DNA from: Blastomonas fulva | GTDB taxonomy: Bacteria > Pseudomonadota > Alphaproteobacteria > Sphingomonadales > Sphingomonadaceae | Direction: 5' to 3' | DNA: 64,000 nt | Assembly: GCF_003431825.1 (NCBI RefSeq) | Contig: NZ_CP020083.1 | Span: forward strand, 372,001 to 436,000 | Part shown: piece by piece, positions 8,970 to 64,000 of the stretch | Position numbering within the stretch: the first letter of the stretch is position 1 | Layout: every line of letters begins with the position of its first letter | The notes under the pieces: model-generated | Told to the model about the DNA's origin: nothing | The model's database searches: none | Seen by the model: only the letters and a program-made list of their open reading frames with translations | Position numbers and translations under genes: made by a program

Positions 8970-9260
8970 GTGAAAGGCGGCTGGGTCTACATGATGGCGG
9001 ATCGCTATCGTGGTACGATCTACACCGGCGTTACTGCAGATATTGGCCGCCGGGTAGAGCAACATCGCAGCGAAGGCGGATCGCGATTTGCAAAGCGCTA
9101 CGGACTCTCACGCCTGGTCTATACAGAATGGCATGACGAGATCATATCAGCGATCGAGCGGGAAAAGGCGATCAAGAAATGGCGGCGACAGTGGAAGATT
9201 GATCTGGTTGAGGAAGCCAATCCGGAGTGGCTGGACCTGACGCCCCTCATGAATGCTTAG
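8970..9260 (+). CDS. GIY-YIG nuclease-family protein (UPF0213/YhbQ type)
   Basis: 96 residues starting at a GTG with GAAGG just upstream. Motifs follow the small GIY-YIG family: VYMM (GIY position), IYTG (YIG position), the catalytic Arg in IGRRVEQH, the metal-binding Glu in IEREKAIKKW, and NPEW near the end. All catalytic positions appear intact, unlike in the GIY-YIG domain at 63405. The family is annotated as structure-specific or repair nuclease, but the role of these stand-alone members is poorly defined. A pair of palindromic repeats follows directly. Confidence 0.85.
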   Translation: MKGGWVYMMADRYRGTIYTGVTADIGRRVEQHRSEGGSRFAKRYGLSRLVYTEWHDEIISAIEREKAIKKWRRQWKIDLVEEANPEWLDLTPLMNA

Positions 9261-17796: not shown

Positions 17797-17880
17797 AGCG
17801 AGGGCTGCGGCGGGCATCCAATAAGCCCGTTCAGCCTGAGTGTGTCGGAGGTACGCGCCAAAGCTTGCCCCACACTCCAC

Positions 17881-17971
17881 CGTCATCCTGAACTTGTTTC
17901 AGGACCCATCGCGCCCCAAGGACCGAAGCCGCGTGGGGAGAAATGGGCCCTGAAACAAGTTCAGGGTGACG
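17881..17971. repeat. Inverted repeat pair, 29-bp arms
   Basis: The left arm 17881-17909 (CGTCATCCTGAACTTGTTTC onward) and the right arm 17943-17971 (ending CAAGTTCAGGGTGACG) are inverted copies with about two mismatches. Each arm contains its own smaller palindrome (CCTGAA...TTCAGG). It belongs to a different sequence family from the CCCCGCG elements. A further fragment (CTTCGACAGGCTCAGGCTGA) follows at about 18002. The pair sits between the mlaA and fumarase stops and may terminate both. Confidence 0.85.
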
Positions 17972-18071
17972 GGTTTTCAGTCACGGAAGGCAGTGCGGGG
18001 CCTTCGACAGGCTCAGGCTGAGCGGAGGTGGGGCGTCACTCGCGATTGCGCGATCTCCACCCCCTTCGCTC

Positions 18072-62943: not shown

Positions 62944-63405
62944 ATGAGATGCCCCTTTTGCGCGCACGAAAACAGCCAGGTCAAGGATAGCCGCCCCACC
63001 GAAGACGGGGCGGCTATCCGCCGTCGGCGGCAGTGCGAAAGCTGCGGCGCGCGGTTCACGACGTTCGAGCGCATCCAATTGCGCGACATCATGGTGGTCA
63101 AGAGCGAGAACCGCCGCGAGCCGTTCAACCGCGCCAAGATCGAGAAATCGGTCGCGGTCGCCTGCCGCAAGCGCGGGATCGACCAGGAGCGCATCGACCA
63201 GCTCGTCTCGGGCATCCAGCGCCAGATCGAGACATCGGGCGAGAACGAGGTGCATTCGCGCGATATCGGCGGGATGGTGATGGATGGGCTGCGCATGCTC
63301 GACAGCGTCGCCTATATCCGCTTCGCCTCGGTCTATCGCGATTTCAGCGAAGCCAAGGACTTCGAGGAATTCGCCAGCACCGTGAAAGATGTTGGCGGCG
63401 CCTGA
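62944..63405 (+). CDS. nrdR: Transcriptional repressor NrdR
   Basis: 153 residues. The N-terminal zinc ribbon has C3/C6 (CPFC) and C31/C34 (CESC), and an ATP-cone domain follows from about residue 49. NrdR senses dATP/ATP and represses ribonucleotide reductase genes; nrdA-nrdB at 20177-23802 are the obvious local targets. The stop shares a base with the ATG of the next gene (TGATG). The glyA-nrdR order is common in alphaproteobacteria. Confidence 0.96.
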
Positions 63406-64000
63406 TGCCCTATTTCACCTATATGCTGCGCTGCGGCGATGGATCGTATTTCGTCGGCCATGGCGAGAATCTGGACACCGATGTCGCCGCACATCAGGCA
63501 GGTGCCGTCCCCGGCTACACCAAGGCGCGCCAGCCGGTCGAATTGGTGTGGAGCGAAGATTTTGCCACCGCCGACAATGCGCAGGCAGTCGACAGGCAGA
63601 TCAAGGGCTGGAGCCGCGCCAAGAAGGAGGCGCTGATCCGGCAGGACTATGGCGCGCTGTCCGAACGCGCGCGCAAGATGCTGCTGGGCAAGGCGAAGGC
63701 GGCACGCAACCTGCAGTCTGCAAGGGACGCGGCGCCAGGCGACCTGCGCAAGCCCATCGTCATTCTGGTGCGTCCGCAACTGGGCGAGAACATCGGCAAA
63801 GCCGCGCGCGCGATGCTCAATTTCGGGCTCACCGAAATGCGGCTGGTCGCCCCGCGTGATGGCTGGCCTAATCCCAGCGCGGGCCCGGCGGCCTCTGGAG
63901 CGGACATCGTGCTCGAACAGGCGCAGGTGTTCGAGACGGTCGCCGACGCGGTCGCCGACTGCAACCATGTCTATGCGACCACCGTGCGCAAGCGCGGCGT
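63405..64000 (+). CDS. GIY-YIG domain fused to TrmJ-type tRNA/rRNA methyltransferase (partial, runs off the window)
   Basis: One open frame with no stop from ATG 63405 to the window end (198 codons seen). Residues 1-85 are a GIY-YIG domain (FTYMLRCGDGSYFVG, QIKGWSRAKKEALI). After a short linker, residues 116-198 are the start of a TrmH/SPOUT methyltransferase of TrmJ type (PIVILVRPQLGENIGKAARA, FGLTEMRLVAPRDGW, ADIVLEQA). In the GIY-YIG part the YIG Tyr is Phe, the catalytic Arg position is Asp (NLDTDVAAH) and the metal Glu appears as Asp (AVDRQIKGW), so nuclease activity is unlikely. No good internal start for a separate trmJ exists; ATG 63678 lacks a ribosome-binding site. Confidence 0.85.
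   Translation, partial: MPYFTYMLRCGDGSYFVGHGENLDTDVAAHQAGAVPGYTKARQPVELVWSEDFATADNAQAVDRQIKGWSRAKKEALIRQDYGALSERARKMLLGKAKAARNLQSARDAAPGDLRKPIVILVRPQLGENIGKAARAMLNFGLTEMRLVAPRDGWPNPSAGPAASGADIVLEQAQVFETVADAVADCNHVYATTVRKRG

Follow-up and report, generated by a model that had tools for sequence, protein, structure and literature searches.

The window analysed here is a stretch of 64,000 nucleotides of the Blastomonas fulva genome (contig NZ_CP020083.1, positions 372,001 to 436,000, forward strand), and it ends within a gene that encodes a GIY-YIG domain joined in frame to a TrmJ-type RNA methyltransferase. The frame that begins at ATG 63405 has no stop before the end of the window, as a first, sequence-only reading of this DNA had stated, and the remainder of the gene, read from the same genome, brings it to 356 codons with a stop beyond the window. 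Pfam search places a GIY-YIG domain at residues 3-74 and a TrmH/SPOUT methyltransferase domain (SpoU_methylase) at residues 118-265 of this one frame, both above cut-off, which agrees with the domain order of that reading. The upstream neighbour is nrdR, and its stop codon and the fusion ATG overlap as TGATG (63403-63407), an arrangement that suggests translational coupling of the two genes (Table 1).

Table 1. Features at the nrdR-trmJ junction (window positions, except for the gene end, which lies beyond the window)
Feature	Position	Strand	Basis and remarks
nrdR, directly upstream gene	62944..63405	+	Open reading frame; NCBIfam TIGR00244, 173 bits; stop overlaps the fusion ATG
GIY-YIG-TrmJ fusion gene	63405..64000, runs past the window to G000:C1:436475	+	356 amino acids
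GIY-YIG domain, residues 3-74	63411..63626	+	Pfam PF01541, 33.6 bits (cut-off 22.6), member of the fold family; same site in genome search
F16 for the Tyr of YIG	63450..63452	+	Translation, alignment
D26 for the catalytic Arg	63480..63482	+	Translation, alignment
D63 for the metal-binding Glu	63591..63593	+	Translation, alignment
Linker, residues 85-115	63657..63749	+	Without the palindrome core that adjoins GIY-YIG in 39 fused loci of other clades
SPOUT (SpoU_methylase) domain start, residue 118 onward	63756..64000	+	Pfam PF00588 over the whole gene, 81.5 bits (cut-off 29.7); profile match to 5gra

The C-terminal half of the protein resembles an intact TrmJ. Its best NCBIfam match is TIGR00050 (TrmJ/YjtD) with 158.1 bits, slightly below the cut-off of 167.15, and the alignment profile of the family matches the solved TrmJ structure 5gra over residues 117-352 (E 8e-137). 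The TrmJ stretches NIGK.ARAM, which includes the catalytic Arg, and SLNLAQAV are both present in the window protein and recur in 117 and 120, respectively, of the 120 listed homologues, the best 120 of 8000 scored. All 120 of these homologues also show both Pfam domains, and a purpose-built GIY-YIG profile finds its domain in every one of them. E. coli TrmJ methylates tRNA position 32 according to the consulted text of PMC1829167. Because the conserved stretches are kept and the family profile matches 5gra, the TrmJ half of the window protein probably methylates the same position. The gene is predicted to encode one polypeptide, estimated at about 39 kDa, consisting of an intact-looking TrmJ-type tRNA methyltransferase and an N-terminal GIY-YIG domain that has lost the residues for cutting.

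The GIY-YIG half does not carry the Tyr/Tyr/Arg/Glu set of catalytic residues. At the four aligned catalytic positions, the window protein has Y6, F16, D26 and D63, where most relatives have Y, Y, R and E. By the alignment and by comparison with GIY-YIG enzymes, positions 16, 26 and 63 correspond to the YIG tyrosine, the catalytic arginine and the glutamate that binds metal, and the three replacements proposed by the sequence-only reading (Y16F, R26D and E63D) are real in the alignment. Among the five species of the window's clade, one keeps the second Tyr (YYDD), and Arg and Glu are lost from all five. All of the 39 other fused genes have a complete Y/Y/R/E set, as do 28 of 29 close standalone GIY-YIG genes and 57 of 61 distant standalone ones (the four exceptions lack only the first Tyr in the alignment); none of the five clade members has it. 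Likewise, 89 of the 99 single-domain proteins among the 120 listed homologues read YYRE, the exceptions being the clade's six entries (P0003-P0008), P0119, P0043, P0070 and P0048. The other 21 homologues (P0009-P0029) carry two GIY-YIG domains before TrmJ. In all 21, the outer domain reads YYRE and the inner domain lacks the Arg, as if a new cassette had landed in front of an older, tamed one.

Does the altered domain still matter to the cell? A functionless passenger, carried along by being in frame and now in decay, would fit the three catalytic substitutions and the loss of the repeats described below, and decaying GIY-YIG pieces occur elsewhere (loci L017 and L175, and L390 with an in-frame stop). 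Against such a passenger stand the rates of nonsynonymous (dN) and synonymous (dS) substitution. Over the five clade species, mean dN is 0.060 and mean dS 0.642 for the GIY-YIG part, a ratio of about 0.1 that is similar to those of intact copies (0.02-0.24); the corresponding values are 0.082 and 0.557 for the linker and 0.021 and 0.453 for TrmJ. The GIY-YIG part of the clade is, judged by these rates, under purifying selection, and simple decay seems quite unlikely. The sequence-only reading proposed that the dead fold may have been kept as an RNA-binding module of the methyltransferase; of this, retention in a non-catalytic role is supported for the window's clade.

An alternative in which no fused protein exists and TrmJ is made from an internal start could draw on an in-frame Met at residue 92 and on the fact that start sites are known here from sequence alone. 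The frame is open through both parts in all five clade species, the linker between them is conserved, and the start codon lies at the nrdR stop or a few bases away, which makes an internal start very improbable. The same openness of the frame, in the five clade species and in the 120 listed homologues, disposes of a sequencing error that hides a stop near codon 90.

The sequence-only reading also held that the two domains are normally encoded by neighbouring genes in related bacteria, and the survey of other genomes that it proposed does not bear this out. We inspected the upstream side of 219 trmJ loci over 0.5-2.6 kb; this collection is partly redundant, since L005, L006 and L007 are one gene and L010 and L042 share an identical TrmJ. 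The GIY-YIG part is fused to trmJ in 47 loci, forms a partial separate piece in two and was not found adjoining trmJ in 170. One intact-looking two-gene case was met outside this collection, in Sphingomonas parapaucimobilis (NZ_CP155752). The two partial loci, L017 and L175, show nrdR, a partial GIY-YIG frame and trmJ in that order, and decay of the same insertion is probable there.

The distribution of the fusion is patchy. The order-wide set, for which 191 genomes had a match, comprises 130 examined loci, made up of the best-scoring rows and 20 loci of other families, and fused genes may be over-represented in it because best-scoring rows were taken. It contains 12 fused, two partial and 116 loci without the domain. 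All 12 fused loci, that of the window included, fall within the 110 loci of its family, the Sphingomonadaceae, and none within the 20 of other families. Fusion is found in five of nine genomes of the window's genus and in 29 of the 80 named loci, which were collected as best matches. A B. natatoria locus (L055) has a TrmJ stretch identical to that of genome G197 of the window's genus (L121), in keeping with a probable placement of this genus in Blastomonas. In 190 of the 219 loci, trmJ is preceded by an nrdR match of the same orientation, and in unfused loci with nrdR a median of 23 bases separates the end of this match from the TrmJ domain (n=142). Therefore, the GIY-YIG part occupies a single tight junction between nrdR and trmJ.

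The fused state has changed repeatedly at this junction. On a quick TrmJ tree of 215 rows, at least 27 changes between the fused and unfused states are required, and 25, 16 and 11 changes remain when branches with Shimodaira-Hasegawa-like approximate likelihood ratio test (SH-aLRT) values below 80, 90 and 95, respectively, are collapsed. Very close TrmJ pairs, near-identical neighbours among them, differ in the presence of the GIY-YIG insert, and the fused and unfused species of the window's genus form sister groups. In Sphingobium, the TrmJ parts of L041 and L053 are 92-95% alike to those of L048 and L062, the GIY-YIG parts are 65-70% alike, and the adjoining repeats are different; in L048 and L062, the linker closes with a sequence that resembles the tail of the other type, which would fit the displacement of one cassette by another. 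Over 43 fused genes, the identities of the GIY-YIG and TrmJ halves correlate at 0.37. A tree of the GIY-YIG part alone (82 columns) is poorly resolved; fused and standalone genes are intermixed in it, with at least six changes. A single vertical fusion, with agreeing histories of the two halves, is unlikely in view of the repeated state changes, this correlation and the Sphingobium mismatch. Plasmid records were also considered as evidence of transfer and were set aside, since the best match, which carries glyA along with nrdR and trmJ, probably represents one part of a split genome.

What is the source of the inserted domain? Repetitive extragenic palindromes (REPs) are abundant repeats of many bacterial genomes. 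In the fused loci outside the window's clade, REP-type palindromes lie between the GIY-YIG part and trmJ, and often also in the spacer after nrdR; the REP beside the GIY-YIG part mostly encodes the linker. A REP core motif, composed after the sequences had been viewed, occurs in the linker or spacer of 39 of 39 such loci (in the linker of 36, in both of 29), in 3 of 138 unfused junctions and in none of the five loci of the window's clade.

A motif-free test gives the same picture. The 250 bases upstream of each domain were aligned to the reverse complement of the 250 bases downstream, with a threshold score of 18; the 143 domain rows were reduced to 120 by discarding those whose flanks repeated another row's. 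The class-wide draw, from 58 genomes, supplied 46 standalone genes, one of them with a flank too short for the test, and about a dozen weaker non-UvrC GIY-YIG places were left out. Of the 28 standalone GIY-YIG genes in the genus, 24 reach the threshold, as do 27 of the 39 loci with a fusion in other clades and 16 of 45 class-wide standalone genes; these 16 lie in 11 genomes, three of the genes in one genome of the window's family. The threshold is reached by none of the five loci of the window's clade, neither of the two partial pieces, none of 190 controls (20 UvrC genes and 170 unfused trmJ genes) and none of 4500 dummy genes near the same loci, which are random intervals rather than called genes. 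Mismatched flank pairs reach it in 28 of 2025 class pairs (1.4%) and in 71 of 1484 pairs over all GIY-YIG sets, the latter because many share a repeat type. In the two-gene locus of S. parapaucimobilis, a repeat encodes the last residues of the GIY-YIG frame, which shares four bases with trmJ, and the score is 16.5, below the threshold.

Among the locus groups fetched, only the window's clade lacks both the repeats and the catalytic set. Because both are gone and yet dN/dS is about 0.1, the GIY-YIG part of this clade can be read as a domesticated copy of a cassette, one that would have lost its repeats and cutting residues and kept its fold.

Four genes of the genus (L003, L262, L263 and L269) fail the flank test; their surroundings are similar, with both palindromes behind the gene. 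L003 is a second, standalone GIY-YIG gene in the window, with its domain at 8979-9200 and its stop at 9258-9260, and a pair of CGTC-tagged palindromes lies directly behind it, from 9285 to about 9365.

The repeats differ among the GIY-YIG groups of the genus, and each group carries the same type on both sides of the gene. On the domain tree, in which only types A and B were compared, the nine type A genes fall together and the five type B genes form a supported group. Dispersed matches per genome number 24-56 for type A, 3-55 for type B, 0-56 for type C, 1-98 for type D and 3-27 for type F, which is of the CGTC kind, and reversed-pattern controls give none in any genome searched. Genomes with and without the cognate gene hold, respectively, 26-56 and 24 or 38 copies of type A, 40-55 and 3-25 of type B, 19 or 56 and 0-26 of type C, 98 and 1-21 of type D, and 13-27 and 3-13 of type F. 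Repeat number thus tracks the cognate gene (permutation p = 1e-5 over five types and nine genomes, with related genomes taken as independent); L131, a type B gene with a diverged right copy, was scored as being without the gene by the automatic rule. A type A GIY-YIG gene apparently lies between the same two convergent genes in L001, L124, L126 and L132, and its orientation, read by eye, is reversed in L001, the locus of the window's genome. An inverted type A pair also lies at G000:C1:436498-436577, from 23 bases past the stop of the fusion gene, and a similar pair stands behind the fusion gene in G198.

CGTC palindromes were defined by a CGTC-like head, a stem of 7-10 bp starting with A, a loop of 3-6 and a CCA-like tail, and were required on both sides of the gene. 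They flank 15 of 74 standalone genes with their heads outward (6 of 28 from the genus, 9 of 46 from the class). They flank none of 20 UvrC genes, 170 trmJ genes and 3000 dummies, of which two trmJ genes and 49 dummies have such a palindrome on one side, and none of the 39 fused loci, which carry other repeat types.

Several dispersed type A repeats form inverted pairs that are oriented as around the gene and lie about 55 bases apart, or about 165 where another pair is nested within. At 17826-18025 of the window, a CGTC-type pair (17881-17904 and 17948-17971) is enclosed by a type A pair, the right copy of which spans 18001-18025 and the left copy of which has decayed.

Such nesting lends itself to another explanation, in which the repeats are moved by something else, such as a REP-associated tyrosine transposase (RAYT), replication or recombination, and the GIY-YIG genes are cargo or a favoured landing place. 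REP pairs nest in one another, so that the spaces between REPs are landing places, and a Y1/RAYT-type transposase gene (PF01797) is present in two of nine genomes of the genus. The other seven, that of the window included, have no PF01797 match despite their many repeats. Repeats of the same type on both sides of the gene, and a repeat number tied to the cognate gene, likewise speak against a separate mover, which we consider unlikely.

A further alternative takes the fusion as selected for RNA work, with the GIY-YIG domain as a natural partner of RNA methyltransferases, an RNA-binding module that is dead here, and the repeats as bystanders. Purifying selection on the dead domain, the repeated choice of the same methyltransferase gene and the retention of a dead inner domain in 21 of 21 two-domain relatives agree with it, as does B. 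subtilis yazA, which lies between a tRNA methyltransferase gene and rsmI. It is nevertheless an unlikely account of the whole: the same gene family stands between REPs at many other sites within one genus, close relatives have fused genes with different types of repeat, 118 of 130 order-wide loci are not fused and the other 39 fused genes retain the cutting residues. The yazA gene (a GIY-YIG gene; L394 1183-2335) overlaps both of these neighbours, which connects this nuclease family with RNA methylation independently. Another RNA-related junction, that between rnc and era in Sphingomonas paeninsulae (L390 1201-1572), holds a GIY-YIG frame with an in-frame stop and no repeats around it; no matching inverted repeats were found at this gene.

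Thus, we propose that the GIY-YIG part of the window gene derives from a REP-flanked cassette and was later domesticated, which as a whole is the best explanation and a likely one. The ancestral cassette would be a small GIY-YIG gene flanked by a pair of REP palindromes in inverted orientation. Cassettes of this kind would have arrived at the nrdR-trmJ junction on many independent occasions in the Sphingomonadaceae, and a cassette frame that reads through its downstream REP would be fused in frame to trmJ. In the window's clade, an old copy would have been domesticated, with its REPs gone, its Arg, its Glu and mostly its second Tyr replaced and purifying selection acting on what remained. The boldest part of the proposal is that the intact GIY-YIG nuclease most likely recognises the hairpins of its own REPs and drives their spread, as has been proposed for RAYTs. 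The dead half, a relative of the UPF0213 proteins 1zg2 and 1ywl, most likely adds nucleic-acid binding and may help TrmJ to bind or choose RNA. We infer that gain rather than loss underlies most of the state changes, that movement or copying of the cassette with its REPs is the work of the GIY-YIG nuclease itself, and that the dead domain aids RNA binding or choice.

Several observations weigh against this proposal. Change counts cannot separate gain from loss, and two loci hold partial GIY-YIG pieces that appear to be decaying. The TrmJ tree was built by a quick method, and the pattern may also stem from transfer of the trmJ gene. Five fused/unfused pairs show no clean insertion ends or target duplications, and movement of a cassette was not itself observed. 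The inverted-repeat threshold is missed by 29 of the 45 standalone genes drawn class-wide and by 12 of the 39 fused loci, and no such flanks were found at the GIY-YIG genes of E. coli, B. subtilis, Rhizobium and Acidiphilium (plasmid-collection records). The nine genomes compared within the genus are related; types A and C are weak when taken alone, with type A numbers differing little, and two of seven genomes without the type C gene hold more type C repeats than the window's genome, which has the gene. There is a chance that GIY-YIG genes are mere landing places.

The kind of fusion described here is already known. A fusion of GIY-YIG and SPOUT domains in Erythrobacter litoralis (ELI_05635 / GI 61101200) is recorded in 'Phylogenomic analysis of the GIY-YIG nuclease superfamily' (PMC1564403, 2006) and in 'Structural and evolutionary bioinformatics of the SPOUT superfamily of methyltransferases' (PMC1829167, 2007). 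Compared by description, it is like the window gene in placing an N-terminal GIY-YIG domain on a COG0565 (TrmJ-family) SPOUT domain in a member of the same bacterial order. It differs in being given as a single instance, and the consulted passages of the two papers mention neither repeats nor recurrence nor a lost active site. Each known structure matches just one half of the fusion family, with 5gra corresponding to TrmJ and 1zg2 and 1ywl to UPF0213: the family profile matches 1zg2 over residues 1-80, and none of its 19 PDB matches covers both halves. An origin from REP-flanked GIY-YIG cassettes, and the link between GIY-YIG genes and REPs, were not found in print in the literature searched. 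The open-access literature, partly judged by titles and term counts and with subscription papers and preprints outside it, yielded no report that ties GIY-YIG genes to REPs; the two kinds of term co-occur in the consulted part of a Moraxella paper merely in a list of clade-specific genes, and GIY-YIG together with 'palindromic element' retrieves only a fungal mitogenome.

The closest known parallel is the RAYT/REP system, and the criteria applied here are those supplied by the consulted text of PMC2817692. In both systems, as far as that text describes the RAYTs, a gene lies between two inverted REPs, enzyme and repeat covary, repeat number is tied to the gene and REPs form doublets. The systems differ in that a GIY-YIG nuclease stands here in place of the Y1 (PF01797) transposase and that the repeats are CGTC-tagged or of other kinds. 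The placement of a gene between inverted REPs holds for 24 of 28 standalone relatives in the genus and 16 of 45 in the class, and not for the window gene itself (none of five in its clade). GTAG-headed REPs have RAYT transposases, whereas CGTC-tagged REPs, which occur mostly in Alphaproteobacteria, have no associated gene and apparently no dedicated transposase according to the consulted sections of PMC3733652. Although no partner gene was found there, such palindromes flank 15 of the 74 standalone GIY-YIG genes examined here.

With a confidence slightly better than even, we suggest that the dedicated enzymes still missing for a large group of bacterial REPs, the CGTC-tagged and sphingomonad types, are small GIY-YIG nucleases. 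A GIY-YIG gene between inverted REPs would then be the autonomous element, the dispersed REP pairs its non-autonomous kin and the GIY-YIG-TrmJ fusions its insertions, which at least twice would have given rise to a dead domain of TrmJ, once in the window's clade and once as the inner domain of the two-domain relatives. The CGTC-tagged REPs would thereby gain a testable enzyme candidate, a GIY-YIG nuclease whose chemistry is other than that of the RAYTs. The fusions would form a natural series, with a repeat-flanked gene at its beginning, an in-frame fusion in the middle and, at its end, a domain of an RNA-modifying enzyme that is conserved although dead.
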